From contig JAYZXF010000001.1 in the NCBI GenBank assembly GCA_036141575.1, forward strand, positions 124,001 to 188,000: a stretch of 64,000 bases of DNA. The letters run 5' to 3'. Source of the stretch: Pseudomonadota bacterium. Its GTDB lineage: Bacteria; Pseudomonadota; Alphaproteobacteria; UBA2136; JAPKEQ01. The notes under the pieces were generated by a model. That model was given only the letters and a program-made list of their open reading frames with translations. It had not been told where the DNA came from and did no database searches. Positions 14,657 through 27,580 of this stretch are shown here, one piece after another; position 1 is the first letter of the stretch; every line of letters begins with the position of its first letter. Position numbers and translations under genes: made by a program.

Positions 14657-17650
14657 TTATTTAATATGCCCCATAACGTCTTCAACGCTAGTAGCTTTAA
14701 TGTATTCTGCTGGGTTTTCGGTAGCTGCAATTTCATCAAAGTGCTTCTCACCACAACGGATTTTTGCACCTTCTTGGTGACGTAAGTCATCCCACCAATT
14801 GCTACCTTTTGTCTCCACAACGAAATACAGCTTCTCGTGTCCATCATCTTCAATTAAAACCGCCCAGTCGGGATTGTAGGAACCCAATGGCGTTGGCACT
14901 TTGAACCATGCAGGTAGTTTGGCATAAACCTTAACTGCTTCATTAGTCTCCAAATCTTCGGCAAACTTCTTCTCTACTCCAGCAGAGTCATAAACTATAT
15001 GTTCATAAACAGATTTCTCGGCTTTAACTGTATCTTTCAGATATCCTTTAAGCTCCTCCTGCTCAAAAAGCTCCTGAGCATAGAACTCTTTATCTCCAAT
15101 TTTGTGATATTTAATACCGTCGACTAGGGCTAACCGCTTAGTACGGTTAATAGCTTCTGATGCCATATCTATGAACTGCTGAGGGTTGCGAGCAAAATCT
15201 TGTATTCTGCGGCTAGCTGTAAGTATTTTAACAATACTATGACGAGTTAACTGCGTTTTATCCTGCAGATCCGTAATAATATCTGGTAATTCGATATCGT
15301 TTTCATGAATTGTTGTAAATCCGGATACAGATGTTTCATCTGCTCTAACACCACCTTTACCAATTTCAATGCCAGCTTTCCTAAATTGAGCTCTTGTTTT
15401 GGTAATAGGAGGACACTTTTCTATAGCTTCAGCAGCATCTGCAATAAGCTTCTCATTGTTAAAGTCCACTCGATAGGTGGTCTTATACTTAATACGATCC
15501 CATAGCTGTTTGAAATCATCACCTAAGAATTTTTCTTTGTTCAGGTGGATTGTTTCTCTCTCATTAGCGTTTTTAATATCCAATTTACCAGCAAGCTTCT
15601 TAAGGATATCTTCTACTGCATCTTTTTGATCTTTAAATTCTTCTGGTAGTTCAAAGTCCCCAGATTTCAATGCTTCACGAAGAGTGTCTTGAACCTTACC
15701 CTTATTATTAACAAAGCCTTGAGTATTTAAGAACTTCCAGATTTTTTCAGATGTATCAACACCAAGAGGAGAAAGTGAACCGTCTTCTTTTTGCACTTGA
15801 ATAGCTGCGAACTGATGTCTTTCAACAATGCCAAAGCGGATGCCAGTGTCAGCTTCAATCTCTTTTTGAAGATTTTCTGCGAACTGTTCATAACCTTCAG
15901 AAGCAATAACCGTTAGGGTATTAATATCGTTTCCACGCAAACGCAAACCTTCTTGGTTCACACATAAACGCAAGCCACGACCGATTGTTTGACGACGCTC
16001 ACGTTCAGTGCCTATTTCACGCAGTGAGCATATTTGGAACACATTCGGATTATCCCAACCTTCCTTCAGGGCTGAGTGAGAGAAGATGAACTTCAGCTTG
16101 GTATCAAAGCTCAGCAGTTTCTCTTTATCCTTCATAATCAGGTTATAAGCACGCTCTGCATTATCGCGGTTTGATTGATTGTTTTCAGCTGTGTCCGTCC
16201 AGCGCTTTTTCTTATCAATAGAAAAATACCCGTCATGCACTTCTGAAGCATCAATATTCAAATCAACCTTTTCAAATAACGTTTGGTAGGCTGGGCTTTT
16301 AGCCAACTTGCGATATTCTTCTTCAAATATTTTAGCATATTTACCTTCAATCTCATTGCCGTCTTCATCGTAGCTACGGTAATGTTCAACGCTATCAATA
16401 AAGAATAGGCTTAAAACTTTGATGGGCTGTTTATTGCGAGCAAAGTGCATTTCTTTATCAAGATGTTCCTTGATAGTACGGCGGATCATTAAGCGTTTAA
16501 GCTCATCAGGATTTACACCGCCAAGAGCATCGCCGGGGTAAAGAGTTGTATCTGCGCCCGGTGCTTTGACTTCAATAGATTCATTATCTTTACCGCAGGT
16601 GATTGTACCAATCTGTATATTTTCATAGATAGCGCGGTTGGTTATTTGTTCTAAATCGTCACCGTCTTCAACGGTCAGAATTTCAGGTTTGATGTTCTTA
16701 CCACGTTGAACATGTAACTCAACTTTTGCAGTAATAGATCCACGAACGTTTTTAGCTTCAATAAGCTTAACGAAAGGCTTGTTATAACCTCCATCAACTT
16801 CCAATGATGCAACTTCGATCTGCTTCACTAGACCACGCTCATAAGCGTCTACAGCGTCAAGGCGGTAAACCATATGGTATTTATCTGCATGAGTGGCAGA
16901 GTAACGCAATGTGCAAAGTGGGTTCATGGCTTCAAGGGCTTTTTTACCTTGGCCTTTCATACCCCCATCAACTGACTGGGGCTCATCCACAATAATAATT
17001 GGGTTGGTTGCCTTAATCAGGTCAATAGGCTTTTCACCGCCGGTGTTTTCGTTTTCCTTATAAAGGTTATTCACATCTTGTTTGTTAATGGCACCAACGG
17101 TTGTCACCATAATTTGGATATTTGCACTGGTGGCAAAGTTACGAACCTTACCGGGCTTGCTAGAGTCATATTGGAAAAACTCATACCCTTTGGCATTGGG
17201 GTATAAAGCTTCAAAATGCTCACGGGTAATTTCTAGCGTTTTATTTGTACCTTCCTTAATAGCAACAGAAGGCACCACAATAACAAACTTGGTGAAGCCA
17301 TAATTTTTATGCAATTCAAAAATGGTGCGAAGGTAAACGTAGGTTTTACCTGTACCTGTTTCCATTTCAACGGTGAAGTCACCACTGGTTAGGTTTTCAG
17401 AAGGGCGGAGACCGTTTTTAATTTGAATATTACGTAAGTTTTCAGCCAGCTCATCATCAATCAGCTGTAGGCGGTTACCAAAGCCAAGTTCGTTTTCATG
17501 GCTAGAATACTGATAACCAACTTCACCAGTATCTTTTTCCGCCACAACCGTAAATTCTGAGCGAGAGATCTCTTGCCCTTTAAACAAACCAACAACAGAT
17601 TCTATCGCTGCTTGTTGATAATCTAGGTTATCTTCAAAATGTAATTTCAT
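14657..17650 (-). CDS. Type III restriction enzyme Res subunit (helicase-nuclease)
   Basis: ATP-dependent DNA translocase and endonuclease that cuts unmodified DNA together with Mod. It has 997 residues. The SF2 helicase core shows Walker A METGTGKT (96-103), the DExx motif VDEPQ, motif III YSATH and motif VI QTIGRGLRL. The C-terminus carries a PD-(D/E)xK nuclease: NPDWAVL, then VVETKG about 18 residues later, then WW-DDLRHQEGAKI. Every catalytic motif is intact. It lies 15 bases after mod in the same operon, as the last gene of five. By family, Res cuts about 25-27 bases from one of two inversely oriented sites. Confidence 0.92.
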   Translation of the reverse strand: MKLHFEDNLDYQQAAIESVVGLFKGQEISRSEFTVVAEKDTGEVGYQYSSHENELGFGNRLQLIDDELAENLRNIQIKNGLRPSENLTSGDFTVEMETGTGKTYVYLRTIFELHKNYGFTKFVIVVPSVAIKEGTNKTLEITREHFEALYPNAKGYEFFQYDSSKPGKVRNFATSANIQIMVTTVGAINKQDVNNLYKENENTGGEKPIDLIKATNPIIIVDEPQSVDGGMKGQGKKALEAMNPLCTLRYSATHADKYHMVYRLDAVDAYERGLVKQIEVASLEVDGGYNKPFVKLIEAKNVRGSITAKVELHVQRGKNIKPEILTVEDGDDLEQITNRAIYENIQIGTITCGKDNESIEVKAPGADTTLYPGDALGGVNPDELKRLMIRRTIKEHLDKEMHFARNKQPIKVLSLFFIDSVEHYRSYDEDGNEIEGKYAKIFEEEYRKLAKSPAYQTLFEKVDLNIDASEVHDGYFSIDKKKRWTDTAENNQSNRDNAERAYNLIMKDKEKLLSFDTKLKFIFSHSALKEGWDNPNVFQICSLREIGTERERRQTIGRGLRLCVNQEGLRLRGNDINTLTVIASEGYEQFAENLQKEIEADTGIRFGIVERHQFAAIQVQKEDGSLSPLGVDTSEKIWKFLNTQGFVNNKGKVQDTLREALKSGDFELPEEFKDQKDAVEDILKKLAGKLDIKNANERETIHLNKEKFLGDDFKQLWDRIKYKTTYRVDFNNEKLIADAAEAIEKCPPITKTRAQFRKAGIEIGKGGVRADETSVSGFTTIHENDIELPDIITDLQDKTQLTRHSIVKILTASRRIQDFARNPQQFIDMASEAINRTKRLALVDGIKYHKIGDKEFYAQELFEQEELKGYLKDTVKAEKSVYEHIVYDSAGVEKKFAEDLETNEAVKVYAKLPAWFKVPTPLGSYNPDWAVLIEDDGHEKLYFVVETKGSNWWDDLRHQEGAKIRCGEKHFDEIAATENPAEYIKATSVEDVMGHIK

Positions 17651-17665
17651 TTTTAAAGCACCTCC

Positions 17666-19645
17666 TTACAAGCTGCGTACATGGTCAATGCCATTTTGGG
17701 AAAGGATGGCGGCCATGTTGGTTTTGGCCACATCATCACGGAAGGCAGAGTCTTTAAAGAACACGTGAGTTTCTAGCACTTTAACGCCCAGTGTTTCTTT
17801 CAGCTCTTTTTGCCAAGCCACAACGCCTGCAGCAAGTTCTTCCACTTGGTCATTTGTAATCAAATCATCTAAGCAGGTAATGATTTTACCATAACCAATG
17901 CTGTAAACATTCTTGCCCGCAATCTCTCTACTTTCAATCGGGGTGGTTAGGTCTACACCACGTTTAAGCAGCAGTTCGTAAAGAACATCCTGCTCCGTAC
18001 GTCCTTCAACAAGGTGTTCTTGGTGTTCTAGCAGGCTTGTTTCCAAGTCCTTACGGTCTGGGTTCCACGCTTTAATGTTAGAGCTGGCCAGTTTGAAAAC
18101 CTTAAAACCTAAATCGCCATCATAATCAGGATTTTCATCCTTGATTTTCTTTGCCGCGCGGCGGATGCGATCTTTGGATAAGTCAGAAATTGTTTTATAT
18201 CCGGCTTTAAAAGCTTCTGTTTTTTCATCTGTAAGCTCAGGCAACTGAACTGAAATATGCCTACGGCTTTCTTTGTTTTCTGAGTTCAACTGCATTACTG
18301 CATGTGCGGTTGTTCCTGATCCTGCGAAAAAATCCATTATAATATCACTGGAATTACTTCCAATAACTAATAAATCCGAAATAAATGGTACTGGCTTAGG
18401 GCCATCAAACAGCTTTTTACCTAACAAATCTTTTAACTTAGTAGTTGCAGTGCTAGTGCTATAATCTGACTTGTAAAAAACTGATTTAGGCTTTTTCGTT
18501 GGTAAGTCACCGAGTTGAGGACGTTGTTTGCGATAGAACTGCCAACCATTTGAAGTATGCTTCAAAATTAAGTTGTGCTTGCTATCATTAAAAGTATTTT
18601 TACTCCAATACCAACTCAGCTCTTCTCCTGATGGGTTTAATGGCAATATCTCCACATCAGTATCTACTAAAGGTCTATTATCTTCAGTAATGTAAAACTC
18701 TTTAGTTTGCTCGTTGAGGAAAATTGGATACCACAAGTTAGGGCGTTTTTCTCTTGGAGCATTTACGCCCGTAGCACGAAGGTTGTCGGCCTCTTTATAT
18801 AAGCCATACTCATCTTCAAGCCAGTTTTTAGCTATTTCTTCTTCATCAACAGAAAAGTGGTTTAACGTACAGTCATCTTTTGACTTAAGACATACAATCA
18901 CATATTCATGAGTTTCTGCGAATCCATAAGCATCTTGGTTACCTTTTAAATTCATGATTACAGGGAAGTTTCCAAGTACATTTTCCTCACCAAAAATTTC
19001 GGTACATATTTCTTGCAAATTAATTACTTCATTTTCATCAATGGAGATAAATATTACACCGTCTTGGCGTAACAAGCTCTTTGCCAGCTTCAATCGCGGG
19101 TACATCATATTCAGCCAATTGGTGTGCTTTCGCCCTCCAGTTTCTGTGTTTGATGTAAATTTCAGACCTTCATCATCTTTTTGACCGGTGTATTTCAAAT
19201 ACGTATCTAGATTATCTTGGAATTTATCTGGATAAACAAACTCTTTCCCTGTGTTATAAGGCGGGTCGATATAAATCATCTTCACCTTGTTTGCGTAGCT
19301 TTTTTGCAGAAGCTTCAACACTTCAAGATTATCACCTTCAATAAACAAGTTTTGGGTTGTATCCCAATCCACGCTTTCTTCGGGGCAAGGCAGAAGCGTA
19401 CCAAGGGATGGTGTTAGGGCAATTTGACGGGCTTGTTTTTTACCATGCCAGTTCAGGCCGTATTTTTCTTCACCTTCATCTAGTACTTTCAGGTCTCCCA
19501 GAAGCTGACGCAGCGTATCAAAATTCACACCGTTCTCGGTAAATGCATCCGGGAACAGCTCTTTTAGCTGTTCTACATTCTCCTGCACGATATCGGCAGA
19601 TGCACCGTCTTGTAATTCTACTTTTTTCATAGCTACTTCTGTCAT
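17666..19645 (-). CDS. Type III DNA methyltransferase Mod (N6-adenine, beta class)
   Basis: Methylates adenine in a short asymmetric site and gives the R-M complex its specificity. It has 659 residues. The beta-class motif order is seen: motif IV DPPY (127-130) first, a long target-recognition region (about residues 220-410), then the SAM motif MDFFAGSGTTAHAV. The C-terminal part fits type III Mod rather than orphan methyltransferases. The ATG at 19645 has GAAGGG upstream; an ATG 15 bases later is an alternative. The gene sits between the DUF4391 gene (17 bases upstream) and res (15 bases downstream). The recognition site cannot be read from the sequence. Confidence 0.93.
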   Translation of the reverse strand: MTEVAMKKVELQDGASADIVQENVEQLKELFPDAFTENGVNFDTLRQLLGDLKVLDEGEEKYGLNWHGKKQARQIALTPSLGTLLPCPEESVDWDTTQNLFIEGDNLEVLKLLQKSYANKVKMIYIDPPYNTGKEFVYPDKFQDNLDTYLKYTGQKDDEGLKFTSNTETGGRKHTNWLNMMYPRLKLAKSLLRQDGVIFISIDENEVINLQEICTEIFGEENVLGNFPVIMNLKGNQDAYGFAETHEYVIVCLKSKDDCTLNHFSVDEEEIAKNWLEDEYGLYKEADNLRATGVNAPREKRPNLWYPIFLNEQTKEFYITEDNRPLVDTDVEILPLNPSGEELSWYWSKNTFNDSKHNLILKHTSNGWQFYRKQRPQLGDLPTKKPKSVFYKSDYSTSTATTKLKDLLGKKLFDGPKPVPFISDLLVIGSNSSDIIMDFFAGSGTTAHAVMQLNSENKESRRHISVQLPELTDEKTEAFKAGYKTISDLSKDRIRRAAKKIKDENPDYDGDLGFKVFKLASSNIKAWNPDRKDLETSLLEHQEHLVEGRTEQDVLYELLLKRGVDLTTPIESREIAGKNVYSIGYGKIITCLDDLITNDQVEELAAGVVAWQKELKETLGVKVLETHVFFKDSAFRDDVAKTNMAAILSQNGIDHVRSL

Positions 19646-19662
19646 TGTTATTTGCCCTTCTT

Positions 19663-20415
19663 CTATAACTCTTGTTTAAGACCGTTTATTTGGTCTGCAA
19701 TTTTTTTAATATGGGTGGTTAGGTCTACCTGTCTGCCCATCTGCTTTTCTTTTTTAAGCTTATTTTGAAGTTCTGACTTTTCTTGTTCCAACTTCTCAAG
19801 CTCTCGTAATTTTTCTATACGGCTTTGCGCGTCGCTGCCTTTGGTTACATTGTAGCTGCCTGTTTGCTCTGCAGCGTTTAAGGAAATTACTAAATTCTTT
19901 ACATCTGTATAGAAGGCGTAGAAGTTCACGAAAGACAAGTTTTTTAAGCTTAAACCTGCCATAAACTGCTGCTGCACTTTATTTGGTTTGCTTGGGTTAA
20001 ACCACTCGGTTAGCCAGCCTTCTTCTACCACCCATTTGGTTTTATCTGCTTGGTTAATACGTTTATCAGCCACACTTAATGCAATATCATCACCATGGGT
20101 AAATATGATTATAATTGGATATGGAATAGCCTTATGCACAAAAGATGAAATACGCTTCATTCGGGTGGCATTGGTGAGGTCTATTTGCAATATGGCAACT
20201 TCGTCATACTCACGTTCAGCATCCTTGAAAGGTTCTATATTTACGGTGCTTGGCTTTAGGGTGTATAGCCAGCGGATTTTATCAATATCGTCCTTTAAGG
20301 CTTTTTTATCGGTAATATCAAGGTCAGCATTCTCTTGAAAAAGCTTTTTAAACAGAGTTTTGTTTAGGTAGCATTTTTCTGGTATGCCTAAGACATTTAA
20401 AAACGTCTGAACCAT
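19663..20415 (-). CDS. DUF4391-type protein
   Basis: A 250-residue protein resembling the DUF4391 family, whose members are typically found between an SNF2-type helicase gene and type III mod/res genes. It begins with a short helical part and a strand-rich central domain (PIPYPIIIIFTHGDDIALSV, then WVVEEGWLTEWF). It ends in a coiled coil from about residue 200 (LEKLEQEKSELQNKLKKEK). Biochemical function is unknown to me. Its start overlaps the helicase stop (TAATG), so translation is coupled. The conserved position argues for a structural or loading role in the complex; this is inference. Confidence 0.72.
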   Translation of the reverse strand: MVQTFLNVLGIPEKCYLNKTLFKKLFQENADLDITDKKALKDDIDKIRWLYTLKPSTVNIEPFKDAEREYDEVAILQIDLTNATRMKRISSFVHKAIPYPIIIIFTHGDDIALSVADKRINQADKTKWVVEEGWLTEWFNPSKPNKVQQQFMAGLSLKNLSFVNFYAFYTDVKNLVISLNAAEQTGSYNVTKGSDAQSRIEKLRELEKLEQEKSELQNKLKKEKQMGRQVDLTTHIKKIADQINGLKQEL

Positions 20416-23400
20416 TATTCAGCCTCCCGTATAATTAGGTAGCTGATAACTTCGAAATCTTCCAATGCAGAGAAGTGATCCTGCGTTAAAGAGGTGCCAC
20501 CACGGCTGAACAGGCTTTCCACGCCTTTTTCTTCAGTTTTACCAACAACGGACTGAATAGCAGCTTCTAGCATAAACTGATATGTACCCATATCTTTGCC
20601 GTCACGGGTGGCTTTGTTAAGACTATCGATAGCTTTAACATCTAGCTCTTTATTGAGTGAGCATAGTTTTTTGAAAATATCGAGGCTCTTTTTACCCTGC
20701 AGGTGGTTGAAAACAACATCACCATTTTCAGCAACATAAACAATGTAATACGGTGCTAGGGCGTAGTTAGCATCAAACTCAACTTTGCCGTGGATGTCTT
20801 TCAGGCAGAAGATTGTGCCAGCAACAAACTCTTTGTTTGGATTTTGAACCGCTGCATAAAATCCGGTTGGTGATTTTTCTAGTTGTTCAAGGTTTTCTTT
20901 CATATAGCTTGATAAATCCATACGGAAGTCGTTTAAAGTCATATCGGTAATAGATACGCTACCATCCATGTCTTCAAGGTCTAGAACGGACTCCTGCAGT
21001 TGCTTCATTTGTTTGCGGCGGTAGTCTAAATCGTTCATCTGCTTATCTTTGTCATACTCGATGACGTTTTCTTCGCCGGTAGCAGAAATATCAAGCAGAA
21101 CCATGCGTCCACTTACACGGGCTTCAAGGTTGATATACTCATCCAGCTCCATATTTGGCCAGAAGTTAGCCAGCTGAATAGATTTATTTGTTGAACCAAG
21201 ACGGTCAACGCGACCAAATCTCTGAATAATACGAACTGGGTTCCAGTGGATATCGTAGTTAATAAGCATATCGCAGTCCTGCAGGTTTTGGCCTTCAGAA
21301 ATACAGTCTGTTGCGATTAGAATATCAATTTCAGTTGTGGATTCAGGGGCGATTTTCTCACGTTCTTTTGAGACCGGTGAAAAGTGCGTTAGAACGTTGT
21401 TCAGATCCTTGTTAAGTCCTTTAATAGTGCATTGGTTTGTACCGCTACCAGTAACCAAAGCTGAGTGCAACCCAAGCTCAGATAGCGCCCACTTAGAAAT
21501 GTTTTCGTAGATATATTCAGCAGTATCTGAGAATGCGGTAAAAATAATAGCCTTCTTATTGCCATCATTTATTGGGGAACTAGCTTTTTGCTGAAGAACT
21601 TCTTTTAATTTAAGAAGCTTAGCATCTCTTGCAGGGTTTACGTTATTCGCATCATCAAGGAGTTTCTTAAGCAGGGCTCGGTCTTCTTCAAGGTCTTGCT
21701 TCAAGCGCACAAGGTCCATATCCTGCACCAAAACCTTTACTTTATTACCAATAAGGTAATCTTCCAAGGCTGGATCATCTGTTTGGATATCTTCAATATT
21801 TAGTTCTTCAATTTCCGAACTCTCATGCGCTTCAATTTGATTTAACAAACCATCAATTTTTCCATGTACTTTATCAATAGTTTGAGCGAAAGAGTTGATT
21901 GAGCTTTCCATACGTTTAAGGAGATTAATACGCATTAAGTGAATCAAGCTACGTTCACGGTCAACCTGTTTAAATACAGAGCCGCCTTTCACTTCTTGGT
22001 CATACTTACGGTTATATTCTTCCTTTTTATCCATACGGACATATTCAAGAGGGGCATATGCCGCCAGATTCAATTTTTTAATAGCCATATTGATATCTTT
22101 TAATGGAGGGAACTGCCCGCTGGTATCAATATCAGCTTTAATATTCATTGGTTTTAAGCGTTCAGGAAACTTACCAACTTCTGAAGTGTCGTAATATTTC
22201 TCAATATGCTTACGTGACCTTGCAATTGTCATAAGGTCTAGAAGTTTAAAGTAATCAAAGTTCACACTTTCTAAAAGAGCTTCGGTTTTTCGCTGTCCTT
22301 CAGGCAATTTAAGCCATTTATTGAACTTTTCTTGCGCTCTTTTCAGTGTATTTTCAATGCTGTTAATACCAAACTCAGATAGAACAGTGTCACGACCTTC
22401 AGTTATGAATGCAACTTGGTTTTTAAGGTCGTTCATTCGGCTGTTAACTGGGGTGGCCGATAGCATTAAGACCTTTGTTTTTACGCCAGATCGAATAACT
22501 TGATCCATTAACTTCTGGTAACGAGTTTCACCGCCAGCCTTCGTTCCACTGTTACGGAAGTTATGAGATTCATCAATAACCAAAAGGTCATAATTAGCCC
22601 AGTTAAGTGTTTCTAGGTTTATTTCACCAGACTTACCAGTGCTTCTGCTGAGGTCAGTGTGGTTAAGTACATCATAGTTAAAACGGTCAGCAGCAAGTAA
22701 GTTGCGCTTATCGTTTATTGTGTAAACAGTCCAGTTTTCACGTAGCTTTTTAGGGCAAAGAACAAGGATACGGTCGTTACGAAGCTCGTAATACTTAATA
22801 ACAGCTAGAGCTTCAAAAGTTTTACCCAAACCAACACTGTCAGCGATGATGCATCCATTGTATTTCTCTAGCTTGTCAATGGCACCCATAACCCCATCAC
22901 GCTGGAACTTATAAAGTTTGTTCCAAACCAAAGTATCCTTAAAACCAGTCTTAGAGCGGATAATGCTGTCTTCGTCTATATCCTCCAAGTATTCTTTGAA
23001 AATATTATAAAGTGTTATGAAATAAATTAAGCTTCCCGGCTTCTCTGATGCTAGGTACTGCAGGTGCTTATCTAGCTCAGCCTTGATATCTTGAACCGCT
23101 TTGGGGGCATTCCAGATTGTATCAAACCAAGATAGAAGTTGCTTTGTATCTTCTGGATTACTAATACCAGTGTTCATCTCAAAGCCGGACGATTTAACTA
23201 CACCAAGACCAGAAGCGGTAAAGCTAGAGCTTCCTTGTATCGCAAATGATGATTGGCCATTATCAATATGAAAAATGTTTTGCCCTATAGGCGCATGACT
23301 AACTTTAACTTGAATATTTTTTGACAACCAAGAAGCACAATCCTTAGCTACACGGGATTGATTAAGTACGTTTTTAAGACGGATTTCATTCTCAGTACCG

Positions 23401-23597
23401 GCTAAAGCAACGAGAGAATTATCATCCCAACGAGAAAGAAGGAGCCTTAAACTATCAATATTACTCAGCTCCTTCTTCAAAGCAGAAAACCCATAAATCG
23501 AAAACAAACCAGAAAGAATAGAAAGCTTAGCTGAAGAATCTATATGACTCTTCAGTTCAGTAATAACATTTCCGTGGTTTTTGTTATCTAAAAGCAT
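20415..23597 (-). CDS. SNF2-type helicase with N-terminal PLD-like domain
   Basis: A 1060-residue Swi2/Snf2-type DNA translocase. Residues 1-180 look like a phospholipase D-type nuclease fold (SSFAIQGSSSFTASGLG), but the expected HxK catalytic pair is not evident, so it may be a non-cutting binding domain. The motor follows: Walker A SVGLGKT, VIDESHNFRN, LSATPVNSRMNDL, and the C-terminal lobe with FTAFSD, ATDCISEGQNLQ and QRFGRVDRLGS. It is the largest gene of the cassette, starting two bases after the HTH gene stop and overlapping the DUF4391 start. It probably moves on DNA in the same defence complex. Confidence 0.88.
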   Translation of the reverse strand: MLLDNKNHGNVITELKSHIDSSAKLSILSGLFSIYGFSALKKELSNIDSLRLLLSRWDDNSLVALAGTENEIRLKNVLNQSRVAKDCASWLSKNIQVKVSHAPIGQNIFHIDNGQSSFAIQGSSSFTASGLGVVKSSGFEMNTGISNPEDTKQLLSWFDTIWNAPKAVQDIKAELDKHLQYLASEKPGSLIYFITLYNIFKEYLEDIDEDSIIRSKTGFKDTLVWNKLYKFQRDGVMGAIDKLEKYNGCIIADSVGLGKTFEALAVIKYYELRNDRILVLCPKKLRENWTVYTINDKRNLLAADRFNYDVLNHTDLSRSTGKSGEINLETLNWANYDLLVIDESHNFRNSGTKAGGETRYQKLMDQVIRSGVKTKVLMLSATPVNSRMNDLKNQVAFITEGRDTVLSEFGINSIENTLKRAQEKFNKWLKLPEGQRKTEALLESVNFDYFKLLDLMTIARSRKHIEKYYDTSEVGKFPERLKPMNIKADIDTSGQFPPLKDINMAIKKLNLAAYAPLEYVRMDKKEEYNRKYDQEVKGGSVFKQVDRERSLIHLMRINLLKRMESSINSFAQTIDKVHGKIDGLLNQIEAHESSEIEELNIEDIQTDDPALEDYLIGNKVKVLVQDMDLVRLKQDLEEDRALLKKLLDDANNVNPARDAKLLKLKEVLQQKASSPINDGNKKAIIFTAFSDTAEYIYENISKWALSELGLHSALVTGSGTNQCTIKGLNKDLNNVLTHFSPVSKEREKIAPESTTEIDILIATDCISEGQNLQDCDMLINYDIHWNPVRIIQRFGRVDRLGSTNKSIQLANFWPNMELDEYINLEARVSGRMVLLDISATGEENVIEYDKDKQMNDLDYRRKQMKQLQESVLDLEDMDGSVSITDMTLNDFRMDLSSYMKENLEQLEKSPTGFYAAVQNPNKEFVAGTIFCLKDIHGKVEFDANYALAPYYIVYVAENGDVVFNHLQGKKSLDIFKKLCSLNKELDVKAIDSLNKATRDGKDMGTYQFMLEAAIQSVVGKTEEKGVESLFSRGGTSLTQDHFSALEDFEVISYLIIREAE

Positions 23598-23599
23598 GA

Positions 23600-23788
23600 C
23601 TATCTTTGTTTCCTAGCGCTTTGCTCTTGTTCTTTTATCCAGCGATCTATTTCGCTTTTACGAAATCGCCATGAGCCTCCAACCTTAAAGGCTGGGAGCT
23701 TACCTTCGGATGTGAGGCGATAGGCTGTTTTTTCGTTTAATTTGAGGTATTCTGAAACCTCTTTCATTGTCATTATGTCGTTATCCAT
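23600..23788 (-). CDS. Excisionase/AlpA-type MerR-like HTH protein
   Basis: 62 residues forming a single winged-helix of the excisionase family: MTMKEVSEYLKLNEKTAYRL (recognition region), then KLPAFKVGGSWRFRKSEIDRW. Such proteins act as small DNA-binding regulators or as recombination directionality factors. It is the first gene of the defence operon, two bases ahead of the helicase gene, so a regulator of the operon is the likely role. No integrase gene is nearby, which weakens an excision role. Confidence 0.85.
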   Translation of the reverse strand: MDNDIMTMKEVSEYLKLNEKTAYRLTSEGKLPAFKVGGSWRFRKSEIDRWIKEQEQSARKQR

Positions 23789-24026
23789 TGGATCTCACAT
23801 CAGTTTGTAAAAGTATATGACTGAGAAAATAGTGGAAATTTAAGGAATGTTCAAGTAATCTCTTTTACTATATTGAACATTAAGGGCTTTCTAGGATAAA
23901 AACATGTACGGGCTAATATAATGGAAATAGAGCTATCCTCAGGGGATCTGAATATTGACGCTCTCTGGGGGGCTACATATAAAGAGATCAAAAATACTTC
24001 TGCATAATATTTTGAAATATAAAAAT

Positions 24027-24052
24027 AAAAACCGGCAGCGCCGGTTTTTCTA
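24027..24052. terminator. Bidirectional terminator
   Basis: AAAAACCGGC and GCCGGTTTTT pair around a short AGC-type loop, with A and T runs on both sides. It insulates the defence operon promoter from the RiPP cluster. Confidence 0.82.
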
Positions 24053-24093
24053 AAATTCACGTTTATCAAATGGTGGAAATCGACCTTGAATTT

Positions 24094-24167
24094 ACGAAAC
24101 TTTTGTTGAGTGAAATCTGTAGCTTAAATAAGTTGTTAAATCAACTTTACTATGAATAAAGTTTCGT
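24094..24167. promoter_or_regulatory. Two nested inverted repeats (possible operator)
   Basis: A perfect 10-bp pair, ACGAAACTTT (24094-24103) and AAAGTTTCGT (24158-24167), encloses a second palindrome AAGTTG-N6-CAACTT (24130-24147). It lies about 40 bases upstream of the precursor -35 box, a plausible activator or looping site. Confidence 0.45.
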
Positions 24168-24205
24168 TTTAGTTAGGTGAAGGAATGGTGGGGTACAATC
24201 ATTGA

Positions 24206-24234
24206 TTGACAATTCTATCCAGGGCATGTATACG
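24206..24234 (+). promoter_or_regulatory. Promoter of the RiPP precursor gene
   Basis: A consensus -35 TTGACA (24206-24211), a 17-base spacer and -10 TATACG (24229-24234). Predicted start near 24241 gives a leader of about 130 bases. Confidence 0.7.
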
Positions 24235-24372
24235 TTTGTCGATTTTAAATCAAGGGGTTTCCCTTGTACCGTTTTAACTGGTGTCTTGTGTACGAGTAAG
24301 CCTATTTCATATGCAGTGAAGTAGGTAATTTAGTAAGGTGTAATAACCTTTTTTGCCAAAGGAGATATAAAT

Positions 24373-24543
24373 ATGGCAAATGAAGCGTCCCAAAAGACTT
24401 TCGAAGTGGATCAAAACCTGCTGCAGGCAACTCCTGCTACTGTGCAGTATGGTCCCGACGAAGCACCTGATGCAACTTTCGAAGTGGATCAAAGCCTGCT
24501 GCAGGCAACCCCTGCAACTGTGCAGTATGGTCCCGACGAATAA
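24373..24543 (+). CDS. RiPP-like precursor peptide with two tandem core repeats, 56 aa
   Basis: A 56-residue peptide: an 8-residue start (MANEASQK), repeat 1 at residues 9-30, the linker APDA, and repeat 2 at 35-56, ending the protein. Each 22-residue repeat begins TFEVDQ, then N or S, then LLQATPATVQYGPDE. The DNA copies (24397-24462 and 24475-24540) differ at only 3 of 66 bases, one of them changing Asn to Ser. There is no Cys; candidate modified residues are Thr, Ser, Gln, Asp and Tyr. AAAGGAGA lies 9 bases before the ATG, and a strong promoter and a downstream terminator-like hairpin suggest high expression. Genes for a HExxH protein and a YcaO protein follow. A conventional long leader is missing, so recognition may lie inside each repeat. 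That this is a RiPP precursor is inference from context. Confidence 0.8.
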   Translation: MANEASQKTFEVDQNLLQATPATVQYGPDEAPDATFEVDQSLLQATPATVQYGPDE

Positions 24544-24573
24544 GCTTCAGGCTTATTCTTGATAGATACAGGT

Positions 24574-24603
24574 GGGGGGCATTTATATATGCCCTCCTTT
24601 TTT
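24574..24603 (+). terminator. Attenuator/terminator between precursor and enzyme genes
   Basis: GGGGGGCAT (24574-24582) pairs with ATGCCCTCC (24589-24597), nine pairs including one G-T, loop of six, followed by six T. Partial read-through would keep the precursor in excess over its enzymes. Confidence 0.8.
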
Positions 24604-24631
24604 GTACATACTCTTAGATATGGAGAATCTC

Positions 24632-25600
24632 ATGATATCTACTCTTGCGACCCCTGTGATTAAAGGCGCATCTTCTTTGAAGGTACGTACTTTGTATAAT
24701 GAAAAAATGTTGGAAAGCTTGGAGAAGCTATTGCTTTCCATTTCAAATGCTGGCATTGATGTCTCTGTAGTTCAGGGATATGTGTCTACTTTGCTACCAA
24801 AGGATTCAATTCCTTCTGATGTTTTTGCTCTTTATCACGCTCTGTTGAGTGCTGTAAAAAGTCAAAATAGGCAGTCTGTTGAACGGTGTTTAATGCAATT
24901 TAGGATTCCAACTCTTGAATTGGCAGGACCAAAATTGATTTTTGGCAGTATTGGTGAATGTCAACGTCATGAAGATGTTGTTCCAGAACTCCCGAACCAT
25001 GAAAAGAAAACCCCTTTGCTCCCAGTGAGTAGGGAGATTGTTCAAAGTTGTTCGGGAGATGCTCAAAAAGCTCTTGCTATTCTTAAACAGTACCACCCTG
25101 AAATGGCTGCTGAAATATTAACCCTCTTGTCGGGGCTCTACTTCTTTGATGATGTTGGGACAGAAGAGCAAATGATTGGTGGTTCTGATGTGCGAGTCTA
25201 TGGAGATATTTTTCTTCGGAGACATAAGGGGGAGATTGATCCTCTTGTTTACTATTGTGAACACATCGTTCATGAAACATCTCACTTGTATCTGCACGCT
25301 CTAATGGCGATGGACCCTTTGGTCCTGAATTCTCCTGATGAACATTACCCCGCGCCAATTCGCTCAGACCTGCGTCCTATGTATGGCGTGTTCCATGCAA
25401 CTTTTGTGCTTAGCAGAATGTGCCAAGTATTTAAAGTGCTTTCTGATCAGTTGTCGGATGAAAATGTGTGTGATGCTCACCAATGTTTTGTGAGACAGTT
25501 TGAGCATGGGTTGAGTACTGTTAATCAGTATGCAGAGCTTACTACACTTGGTCAACATCTTATCATGCAGTATCCAGAAGTTTTGATGAAGGTACGCTAA
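24632..25600 (+). CDS. HExxH-motif putative peptide beta-hydroxylase (aKG-HExxH type)
   Basis: 322 residues from the ATG at 24632, chosen because GGAG lies 6 bases upstream; an ATG 12 bases earlier is possible. The C-terminal half carries HIVHETSHLYLHAL, with HETSH at residues 214-218. It is followed by YPAPIRSDLRPMYGVFHATF, in which H255 could be a third metal ligand. This spacing and the P-x-R-x-D-x-RP stretch match the family annotated as HEXXH-motif peptide-modification proteins, now described as 2-oxoglutarate-dependent peptide beta-hydroxylases rather than proteases. The N-terminal half is helical and unassigned. It sits between the precursor gene and ycaO, so the repeat peptide is the probable substrate. 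A metalloprotease role is the alternative. Confidence 0.78.
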   Translation: MISTLATPVIKGASSLKVRTLYNEKMLESLEKLLLSISNAGIDVSVVQGYVSTLLPKDSIPSDVFALYHALLSAVKSQNRQSVERCLMQFRIPTLELAGPKLIFGSIGECQRHEDVVPELPNHEKKTPLLPVSREIVQSCSGDAQKALAILKQYHPEMAAEILTLLSGLYFFDDVGTEEQMIGGSDVRVYGDIFLRRHKGEIDPLVYYCEHIVHETSHLYLHALMAMDPLVLNSPDEHYPAPIRSDLRPMYGVFHATFVLSRMCQVFKVLSDQLSDENVCDAHQCFVRQFEHGLSTVNQYAELTTLGQHLIMQYPEVLMKVR

Positions 25601-25602
25601 GT

Positions 25603-26562
25603 ATGCCTCTTCCAATTAAAACATTCGTTAGGGCATCTAGGGCTCCTTACGGATATTATATCGCGAAATCAGCCATTGGCCTTAGGTTGGCTGATGGTAA
25701 GCCAATCCACTTGTTTGGCTTTGCGTTTGGGCGTGAGGAAGCTGAAGTTGCTCAGAGGTCTGTATATGAGCTGAAAGAACGCTTTTATGCTTGCTATGAT
25801 GTTTGGAAAGGGGCGTCTGATAAGGGGGAAGTCTTGGATATGCATCATTGGTTGACTCATGAAAAAACAGGGGAGTGCCCTGCACATAACTTGTTATTTC
25901 ACCACGTTACTGCTGGGTCTTCTCCTCTTTTAGATTCTAATGGTATGGCTTGGTACTCAAATTTGAAAGGTGCGTTAAATCATGCAATAATGGAATCTTT
26001 TGAGAGGCACATGTTGAGTCTGGTCTGGTATTATGGGGCTCCTTTATACCTAATTTCTTCGGAGAAGCTTGACGGCGAATACAAAGTTTGTACTTACAGC
26101 ACTCTAAATGAAATTCCTTTCGCCCTCACTGTTGTTGAGCAAGAGGTGGAAGGGATATGGCTTTGTGGCTCTAGTGTTGCACATTGCATGGATGTATCCA
26201 TTGAGAAGTCTAAAAGGGAAGCTTTTATGCTACTCGATGGAATTCTTTTTGGGGAAGATGGTAAATTGAACCCTTCTCACTCTGGTAAGAGGCTTGCATC
26301 ATTAAGTCAAGAAAAGGTGTCCATGTTCAGGTCTTTGCATTTTTCTAAGCTTATTGTGGGAAGGAGGTATTCTTCCCAGAAAAGCTCAGATTTTATGCGA
26401 TGGTTTGATTGTACTGGCATTGATGCTTATAAGCTCAGGTATTGTGCTTTGAAAAATGATGCTGAAGGCGCATTGGTGCGGGTTATTCATCCCAACCTTT
26501 TAAACCCGAAATCTTTGCGGGGAATATGTGGAGATGAAATACCTGATGACCCATTTTGCTAA
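25603..26562 (+). CDS. YcaO-domain protein (ATP-dependent peptide cyclodehydratase-like)
   Basis: YcaO enzymes phosphorylate peptide backbone amides to form azolines, thioamides or amidines. The 319 residues show the family pattern: SNGMAWYSNLKGALNHAIME (112-131), continuing into ESFER with E131 and E134, then CGSSVAHCMD and the second helix SKREAFMLL with E206. The C-terminus ends IPDDPFC rather than the PxPxP tail of azoline-forming YcaOs. No E1-like or ThiF-like partner and no TfuA gene is adjacent, so it is a stand-alone type. The ATG lies two bases after the HExxH gene stop; GAAGG upstream sits inside that gene, giving coupling. Reaction type cannot be told from sequence. Confidence 0.82.
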   Translation: MPLPIKTFVRASRAPYGYYIAKSAIGLRLADGKPIHLFGFAFGREEAEVAQRSVYELKERFYACYDVWKGASDKGEVLDMHHWLTHEKTGECPAHNLLFHHVTAGSSPLLDSNGMAWYSNLKGALNHAIMESFERHMLSLVWYYGAPLYLISSEKLDGEYKVCTYSTLNEIPFALTVVEQEVEGIWLCGSSVAHCMDVSIEKSKREAFMLLDGILFGEDGKLNPSHSGKRLASLSQEKVSMFRSLHFSKLIVGRRYSSQKSSDFMRWFDCTGIDAYKLRYCALKNDAEGALVRVIHPNLLNPKSLRGICGDEIPDDPFC

Positions 26563-26567
26563 TCGAA

Positions 26568-26598
26568 AAAAGCCCTGCGCAGTATGCGTGGGGCTTTT
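26568..26598. terminator. Terminator of the RiPP cluster
   Basis: AAAAGCCC (26568-26575) pairs with GGGCTTTT (26591-26598) with further partial pairing inside. It lies between convergent ycaO and the gene ending at 26602. Confidence 0.82.
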
Positions 26599-26601
26599 AC
26601 T

Positions 26602-26925
26602 TTAATCGGTGGTTACATCTAGCAACAGCTGAGTCTCGATATGTTTATTCCATGTGTTTTTTTTGAATTTTTTGTGGTAAATGTCGATGTTTAGGCTGGA
26701 TGTTTGGGTTGTTTGAATTGCATGATGTATGTTTTCTGCTCTAACATAGTAAATAAGATAATCTTTATCTTCAATAGCTGTTAGGAATGCACTTTCAACT
26801 TTAATACCTTCCTGTTTTAAAGTTTCAAGAACTTCATCTTTTCGCTCATTTAGAGTTTTGCTCCATTCTTTTACGGCATGACGTGAGTTTGGTTTTAACT
26901 CAATGATTGCACATTTTATATCCAT
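26602..26925 (-). CDS. DUF6176-like protein, 107 aa
   Basis: A small soluble protein with a ferredoxin-like alpha/beta pattern: CAIIELKPNSRHAVKEWSKT, then LNERKDEVLETLKQEGIKVE, then a strand with SAFLTAIEDKDYLIYYVRAE. This matches what I recall of DUF6176 (a dimeric-barrel type protein), with function unknown. Unusually AT-rich, like the accessory genes around it. It is convergent with the RiPP genes and is not in their operon. There is no clear RBS before the ATG at 26925. A role in the RiPP pathway cannot be excluded but nothing in the sequence supports it. Confidence 0.6.
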   Translation of the reverse strand: MDIKCAIIELKPNSRHAVKEWSKTLNERKDEVLETLKQEGIKVESAFLTAIEDKDYLIYYVRAENIHHAIQTTQTSSLNIDIYHKKFKKNTWNKHIETQLLLDVTTD

Positions 26926-27051
26926 CAGACTTTTTTGACCCTTTGTTGTAAAATATATCTTCTATAGCTTATCATTATTTTACATGTCCGAAACCATTAT
27001 AAACATTGTTTTTTAGGGCCTTTTTCTTATTTTACTAGACTTGGTTACGAG

Positions 27052-27408
27052 TGGTGGAGACGGCGGGAGTCGAACCCGCGTCCGAAAAAAGTCTACGTGA
27101 GGCTCTCCATGTTCAGTCTTGCTTAAAATTTAAAAATCACACTGGCGCAAAACAACCGATGCAAAGTCGATCCTACTAAAAAATTCGGCTAGGCAGGTAG
27201 GCGCTACTTTTACCTATTCCGTCGAAATGACCGCAGTTTGAACCCAGACGGAAAAGAGCCCAAGTGCGGAAGCTGCGTTAATTAGGCAGCTAGAGCGTAG
27301 TCGTAAGAATTGCCGACTATATACAATTAAACGTTTTTTAAGGCGGGTCGCTCGCCCCTCCACATGCTCCTCTGCGCTTTCCATTCCCGTCGAAACCATG
27401 TCGTCCCC
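27052..27408 (-). ncRNA. ssrA: tmRNA, one-piece (non-permuted)
   Basis: Rescues stalled ribosomes by trans-translation. The minus strand opens GGGGACGACATGGTTTCGAC (27408 down) and closes with the T-arm CGGGTTCGACTCCCG and CGTCTCCACCA (27052). The ends pair as a 7-bp acceptor with one G-T, and CCA is encoded. The tag frame resumes after TATAGTC with GGC and reads GNSYDYALAA then TAA, ending in the canonical YALAA degradation signal (27313-27281). Total length is 357 bases. The order 5' acceptor, tag, 3' acceptor is that of one-piece tmRNA, unlike the permuted two-piece form usual in Alphaproteobacteria. Confidence 0.93.
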
Positions 27409-27434
27409 ACTTGATTAGAGCCACAGATAAAATT

Positions 27435-27463
27435 GTTGTAATCCTTTTTTGCACGTTCGTCAA
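27435..27463 (-). promoter_or_regulatory. Promoter of tmRNA
   Basis: On the minus strand TTGACG (27463-27458), 17 bases, TACAAC (27440-27435). The predicted start is about 20 bases before the mature 5' end, consistent with a leader removed by processing. Confidence 0.65.
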
Positions 27464-27580
27464 TTTATTGCTATGATGTCAGCTGTAAATTGGTACCTTT
27501 GCCTAAAAGTGTAGTGATACGGGGTAGGGAGTATTTCCTAAAGTTTTGAAAAATTAAGTTTGTAATAAAAATAAGTTTAG

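Follow-up and report, generated by a model that had tools for sequence, protein, structure and literature searches.

The peptide cluster of the window, i.e. of the whole 64,000-nucleotide stretch analysed here, is a compact operon on one strand in which the gene of a 56-residue precursor peptide is followed by that of a predicted αKG-HExxH-type peptide hydroxylase and that of a YcaO-domain protein. The cluster and its surroundings comprise the following features:

14657-23788, minus strand: defence island, directly left of the peptide cluster (profile matches, PADLOC)
24358..24364, plus strand: ribosome-binding site AAAGGAG, 8 bases 5' of the start codon (read from the sequence)
24373..24543, plus strand: precursor peptide, 56 aa, with ATG at 24373 and stop at 24541-24543; homologous frame in genome G006 (L008/L012)
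24373..24396, plus strand: N-terminal extension MANEASQK, 8 residues
24397..24462, plus strand: unit 1, TFEVDQNLLQATPATVQYGPDE (self-match; family motif)
24463..24474, plus strand: linker APDA
24475..24540, plus strand: unit 2, TFEVDQSLLQATPATVQYGPDE (self-match; family motif)
24574..24597, plus strand: terminator-like hairpin of 9 pairs with a T tail, between the precursor and the first enzyme gene (folding z -3.2 for 24541-24606)
24632..25600, plus strand: predicted αKG-HExxH-type peptide hydroxylase, 322 aa (TIGR04267; an in-frame ATG is also present at 24620)
25603..26562, plus strand: small divergent YcaO-domain protein, 319 aa (PF02624), the sole YcaO in the genome
26602..26925, minus strand: DUF6176 protein, convergent to the YcaO gene (PF19673, 92.4 bits)
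27052-27408, minus strand: tmRNA gene, beyond the DUF6176 gene (one-piece Rfam model RF00023, 157.8 bits)

The full translation of the precursor frame is MANEASQKTFEVDQNLLQATPATVQYGPDEAPDATFEVDQSLLQATPATVQYGPDE, which reads as MANEASQK-TFEVDQNLLQATPATVQYGPDE-APDA-TFEVDQSLLQATPATVQYGPDE. The first-pass annotation had described two almost identical 22-residue repeats differing by one Asn/Ser change and by 3 of 66 bases, with MANEASQK ahead of them and APDA between. Self-matching of the DNA confirms the repeats, and the sequence and frame of the flanking parts are exactly as described. The two units, of 22 residues each, are identical at 63 of 66 bases, the differences being AAC/AGC, which accounts for the Asn/Ser change, and the silent pairs ACT/ACC and GCT/GCA. 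At offsets of 60-300 the best 66-base self-match has these 63 identities as against 35-38 in every one of ten sequences generated from the window by a first-order Markov model, and the repeat is thus not due to chance; no second site with a self-match of at least 55 over 66 bases was found elsewhere in the window at offsets of 30-999. The precursor peptide occurs once in its own genome. Its units contain no Cys, three Thr each and a single Ser in unit 2 (none in unit 1), and with eight residues before unit 1 there is no long leader. That the frame is coding is supported by the consensus ribosome-binding site and by the homologous frame in G006.

The product of 24632-25600 is predicted, from its sequence and from a structural model, to be an αKG-HExxH peptide β-hydroxylase with the ChlH fold. 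In a profile search it scores 89.6 bits against TIGR04267 (cut-off 40, E 2.3e-25), and its sequence profile matches ChlH (8s5f) with an E of 8.8e-19. The AlphaFold2 model (pLDDT 88.3) matches the ChlH crystal structure in Foldseek (E 2e-13, TM 0.75) and, by VIA-align, over the whole length (Z 26.1, rmsd 3.3, 303 residues); the runner-up is 22ob (Z 22.4), and later rows are at or below 7.2. Residues H214, E215, H218, R248 and H255 are invariant in all nine aligned proteins, and for R248 and H255 we infer a functional role.

The YcaO protein is more divergent. It scores 31.3 bits against PF02624 (cut-off 25.7), the best stretch being residues 84-152 only, and its AlphaFold2 model (pLDDT 46.9) is too low in confidence to be trusted, even if the best Foldseek rows for it are YcaO structures (E 0.0016, TM about 0.3). 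Seven positions of E. coli YcaO, E75, E78, N187, E191, E199, E202 and R203, are presumably its ATP/Mg site. The residues aligned to E75, E78, E199, E202 and R203 are kept in the window protein, as E56, E59, E131, E134 and R135, and in that of G006. At the places of N187 and E191, each of the three YcaO relatives has a different residue. Because of these two replacements the reaction may be unusual, with an ATP chemistry that is lost or altered. Two known product classes were compared with the cluster. One is a linear azol(in)e peptide of the SagD type: the protein has no SagD-level match (TIGR03604, 21.3 bits, far below the cut-off of 219.25), and the units are not rich in Cys, Ser or Thr. The other is a YcaO-TfuA thioamidated RiPP, for which the variable repeat number would fit, but the TfuA partner is absent from the genome (PF07812, no match in the window's own genome, with Methanosarcina acetivorans as a positive control).

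Counting the window's own genome, the HExxH protein is present in 4 of 192 related genomes and the YcaO protein in 2. At the level of the class the figures are 11 and 3 of 385 genomes, the third YcaO (G389) being a weak local match (E 3.6e-4), and the HExxH protein was found in 5 of 96 relatives of genome G183. Among six genomes of other HExxH loci, YcaO is found in one, G404, which carries locus L013; it is also the only one of its own 188 relatives to have it. A genome of the same genus, G001 (85% complete), has neither gene. The closest relative is G006, an alphaproteobacterial MAG of the same order (contig also known as JAPPOO010000020.1), which has the identical three-gene order, precursor, HExxH, YcaO, with protein identities to the window of 36% for HExxH and 43% for YcaO. 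There are signs of decay in G006, where YcaO is shorter (291 aa) and DUF6176 is a truncated remnant at the corresponding place. The precursor of G006 has 41 residues and one unit, preceded by a 19-residue extension before the Phe which is unlike MANEASQK. Its unit FELDSDMLKATPATVQ is identical to the window's FEVDQNLLQATPATVQ at 11 of 16 positions, ATPATVQ included (score 60; none of 2000 shuffles as high). Conservation of the frame, which the first-pass reading had required, is borne out by this homologous frame.

Three further HExxH loci carry comparable units, so that the number of units per precursor is one in G006, two in the window, at least three in L011/G398, where the frame runs to a contig edge, and four in G183; the variation in repeat number which had been anticipated for a modular precursor does exist. 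The remaining locus, L013, lies on a Legionellales contig and has HExxH and YcaO genes; its single unit is read in an open frame which meets the contig edge with no start codon visible. Direct matches of the window unit to those of G183, L011 and L013 are weak, as 58, 41 and 46 of 2000 shuffles respectively score as high. The G006 unit is matched by 1 of 1000 shuffles against L011, by 3 against L013 and, weakly, by 34 against G183, and the G183 unit is not equalled by any of 1000 shuffles against either L011 or L013. Kinship of these three sets of units with that of the window rests on chaining through G006.

Among 830,764 six-frame positions covering the window and all loci retrieved, the shared motif F[ED][LV]x(3-6)[LVMF]x?[AT]TxAxx[QL] has no match outside the precursors of the window, G006, G183, L011/G398 and L013, which are five HExxH loci, with the reservation that the motif was written after the units had been seen. 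In its DNA form it has two matches in the window, both in the precursor gene, where none is expected. The small ORFs of HExxH loci L017, G401 and G198 lack the motif (against the window unit, their match scores are reached by 1749, 1255 and 1101 of 2000 shuffles). All eleven units have T-x-A, ten have a Gln five positions beyond the Thr, and the F[ED] start is seen in eight, two units of G183 being without it and one unit being cut by the contig end. The first-pass annotation had divided each unit into a constant recognition part, TFEVDQ followed by LLQ, and a variable core, ATPATVQYGPDE. This division is not supported, since ATPATVQ, within the supposed core, is the most conserved stretch and is identical in G006. 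The idea of a recognition head survives in so far as Phe-Glu or Phe-Asp recurs in those eight units, and finds no support in the LLQ part, where Q-N/S-L-L-Q of the window becomes S-D-M-L-K in G006. Free variation is confined to the tail after the Gln (YGPDE vs GYSKPQ) and to the linkers. The residue two before the Gln is Thr in the four units of the three YcaO loci (A-T-V-Q or A-T-L-Q), and Ala, Arg, Ser or, once, Thr in the seven units of G183 and L011/G398. For the latter, a genome search with alignment A4 found no YcaO; in G183 there is none among the matches listed nor among the ORFs of at least 220 aa around the cluster. From these five loci we would predict that the Thr tracks with YcaO.

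In both clusters that were folded a terminator-like hairpin separates the precursor from the enzymes, in G006 at the equivalent place (z -5.0 for L008:7290-7365). The hairpin at 24574-24597 is likely a leaky terminator or attenuator, and RiPP operons commonly have a leaky terminator 3' of the gene for the precursor. As hairpins of this kind also follow attenuator leader peptides directly, the ORF might be a regulatory leader peptide or a non-functional repeat, with the true substrate of the enzymes elsewhere. We regard this as very improbable: the motif is common to precursors of different sizes at four other HExxH loci, it is the amino acid sequence and not the frame alone which is conserved in G006, and no regulatory codon is repeated in a row within the ORF.

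The first-pass annotation took the peptide for a multi-unit precursor, and its position next to the genes of two predicted peptide-modifying enzymes speaks for this. Since the two-unit gene directly precedes these enzymes, the precursor is most likely the source of a small modified peptide in two copies, each unit having its own enzyme-recognition motif. We consider it probable that the 56-residue peptide is a modular RiPP precursor on which its two neighbour enzymes act, and that it consists of two units, each an autonomous substrate, without a long leader. The docking part would lie within each unit, as Phe-Glu-Val/Leu and then a Leu, and the block to be modified, ATPATVQ, directly after it. 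The Phe-Glu head may serve as this docking part, although the case for its being required is weakened by the two of the four G183 units that lack it.

Assignments to single residues are much less sure than the modular precursor itself. Known targets of β-hydroxylation by αKG-HExxH enzymes are Asp, His and Gln, and such enzymes are also capable of backbone cleavage (PMC12636437); one that hydroxylates Pro is known as well (PMC13060819). The HExxH enzyme would accordingly be expected to β-hydroxylate one conserved residue per block, the candidate being the Gln of T-x-A-x-x-Q, because it is the only residue of these four types kept in ten of eleven units. YcaO would modify the ATPATVQ block at the level of the backbone or of a ring, at or beside a Thr; the candidate is the Thr two before the Gln, because it is present in all four units of YcaO loci but in just one of the seven units from loci without YcaO. 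Release of the units would be left to host peptidases or to the HExxH enzyme itself, and any bioactivity of the released peptides is presumed. In-frame tandem duplication would account for the gain and loss of copies, and could raise the yield or generate variants without a leader having to evolve anew.

We saw no exporter or peptidase gene beside the window cluster. This, together with the lack of a double-Gly or other obvious cut site, would fit a different product, namely the whole 56-residue peptide, kept uncut as a small intracellular protein with two equivalent modified sites, where each repeat would bind a metal or a macromolecule. For the HExxH cluster pos, moreover, the full-length precursor was reported in whole-cell lysate (PMC12636437). 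We hold such a product to be unlikely, as the 41-residue peptide of G006 has one unit, so that two sites are not needed, and as linkers and tails are poorly conserved in comparison with the TxAxxQ block.

Still less likely, in our judgement, is a processing role for the HExxH enzyme, which would cut the backbone oxidatively inside the units as PflC/PosC do, to give amide-ended peptides, with YcaO only assisting recognition. PflC/PosC hydroxylate Gln, cleave before Ala and form an amide (PMC12636437), and a Gln-Ala pair is present in the units (LLQ-ATPATVQ); the HExxH gene is moreover found at all five motif loci and YcaO at three. But in place of this Gln-Ala, G006 has Lys-Ala, and G183, L011 and L013 have Asp-Thr; G006 has also retained its YcaO gene, and the substrate of PflC keeps a long leader (PMC12636437).

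A modular precursor modified by both enzymes, the reading which we prefer, has partial counterparts in known systems. The nearest precedent for YcaO action on variable repeats is that of the thiovarsolins (VarA, with the YcaO VarY and the TfuA VarT; PMC6511847), where, as in the window, imperfect repeats of variable number, from none to five per precursor, are combined with the absence of a dedicated protease from the cluster. They differ in having TfuA and the oxidase VarO, whereas the window has no TfuA, an αKG-HExxH enzyme and an unrelated unit sequence. On the side of the hydroxylase, ChlH (8s5f), PflC/PosC, BpmH and the nitrilobacillin enzyme have the TIGR04267 family, the HExxH motif and the ChlH fold in common with the window enzyme. 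The partners in known examples are radical SAM, MNIO or asparagine-synthetase-like enzymes (PMC12636437, PMC13060819), in contrast to YcaO in the window, and the pfl/pos precursor has a long leader (PMC12636437), unlike the short repeat of the window. E. coli offers a further comparison, as its YcaO needs neither an RRE nor TfuA to thioamidate uL16 beside an Arg hydroxylated by RoxA, so that neighbouring residues are modified (PMC13063428); in principle, a leader is therefore not required. The uL16 system differs from the window in its folded protein substrate, in RoxA as the hydroxylase and in the absence of a RiPP cluster (PMC13063428).

Multi-core RiPP precursors such as those of microviridins and cyanobactins carry several cores, the modification of which is guided by a separate leader; the window precursor has only its eight residues before unit 1. 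Both enzyme families and repeated cores are already known; what we did not find described in the open-licence literature is an αKG-HExxH enzyme paired with a divergent YcaO that stands alone, on a tandem unit with almost no leader. Tentatively, and with more doubt than confidence, the cluster might represent a class of RiPPs whose short repeats are complete leaderless substrates by themselves, where a YcaO with an altered ATP site and an αKG-HExxH oxygenase share the seven-residue T-x-A-x-x-Q block and where tandem duplication adds or removes units. The reaction of YcaO could then be one that yields neither an azoline nor an amidine nor a thioamide. The interest of the locus lies in the pairing of two enzyme families on a very short, leader-poor substrate built from repeats, and in the natural test that it provides of what a YcaO does when TfuA and, so far as could be seen, an RRE partner too are missing. 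If the units are autonomous, docking and reaction could be dissected on a synthetic peptide of 16-22 residues, and repeat number would be a simple handle for engineering.

A scan of genome contigs with the HExxH protein alone returned no relative (none of 20 stretches), while alignment A1 gave eight loci from 37 stretches. Viral contigs yielded no relative with A1 (65 stretches) or A4 (25 stretches) and no match to the degenerate DNA form of the unit, and phage records searched for relatives gave no match. On plasmids there were four partial HExxH matches and no match to YcaO, and the unit motif is absent from the three of these loci that were retrieved. Two of the plasmid HExxH genes, in Pantoea agglomerans (L021, 5617-7728) and Photobacterium (L023, 4234-6522), adjoin a transporter gene, annotated as MFS in L021 and recognised in L023 as an ORF which resembles a membrane transporter; possibly this is the exporter which the window cluster lacks. 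A separate observation concerns the αKG-HExxH loci of G198 and G401 (L030, 1073-1366, and L037, 1185-1367), which are preceded by small ORFs rich in Gly-Lys repeats (AKVGK, KVGGKVGTK). These ORFs are similar to each other (score 57, none of 1000 shuffles as high) and unlike the window unit.

The flanks of the cluster are not the same in the two closest loci, being the defence island and the tmRNA gene in the window and a tRNA-Ala gene and AlpA-like and Toprim genes in G006. The defence island contains a type III restriction enzyme and methyltransferase, a DUF4391 protein, an HKD/Snf2 helicase (PADLOC C3a139) and a MAD1/excisionase-like HTH protein. Integration of a mobile element was considered and is not demonstrated, because there is no att-like repeat of the tRNA-Ala end of at least 12 bases in L008, nor one of the tmRNA end of at least 11 bases in the window. 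The gene right of the tmRNA has no match in seven relatives, and therefore no empty site can be demonstrated. The DUF6176 gene is possibly an immunity or accessory gene, or else a passenger, its link to the cluster being uncertain. The Rfam scan of 23500-27500 found the tmRNA and no other RNA family. In G001 no tmRNA match exceeds the gathering score; the one-piece model is above cut-off in the window and likewise in two genomes of its order, G003 and G006. As the tmRNA of most Alphaproteobacteria is of the two-piece form, the order to which the window genome belongs may be an exception.
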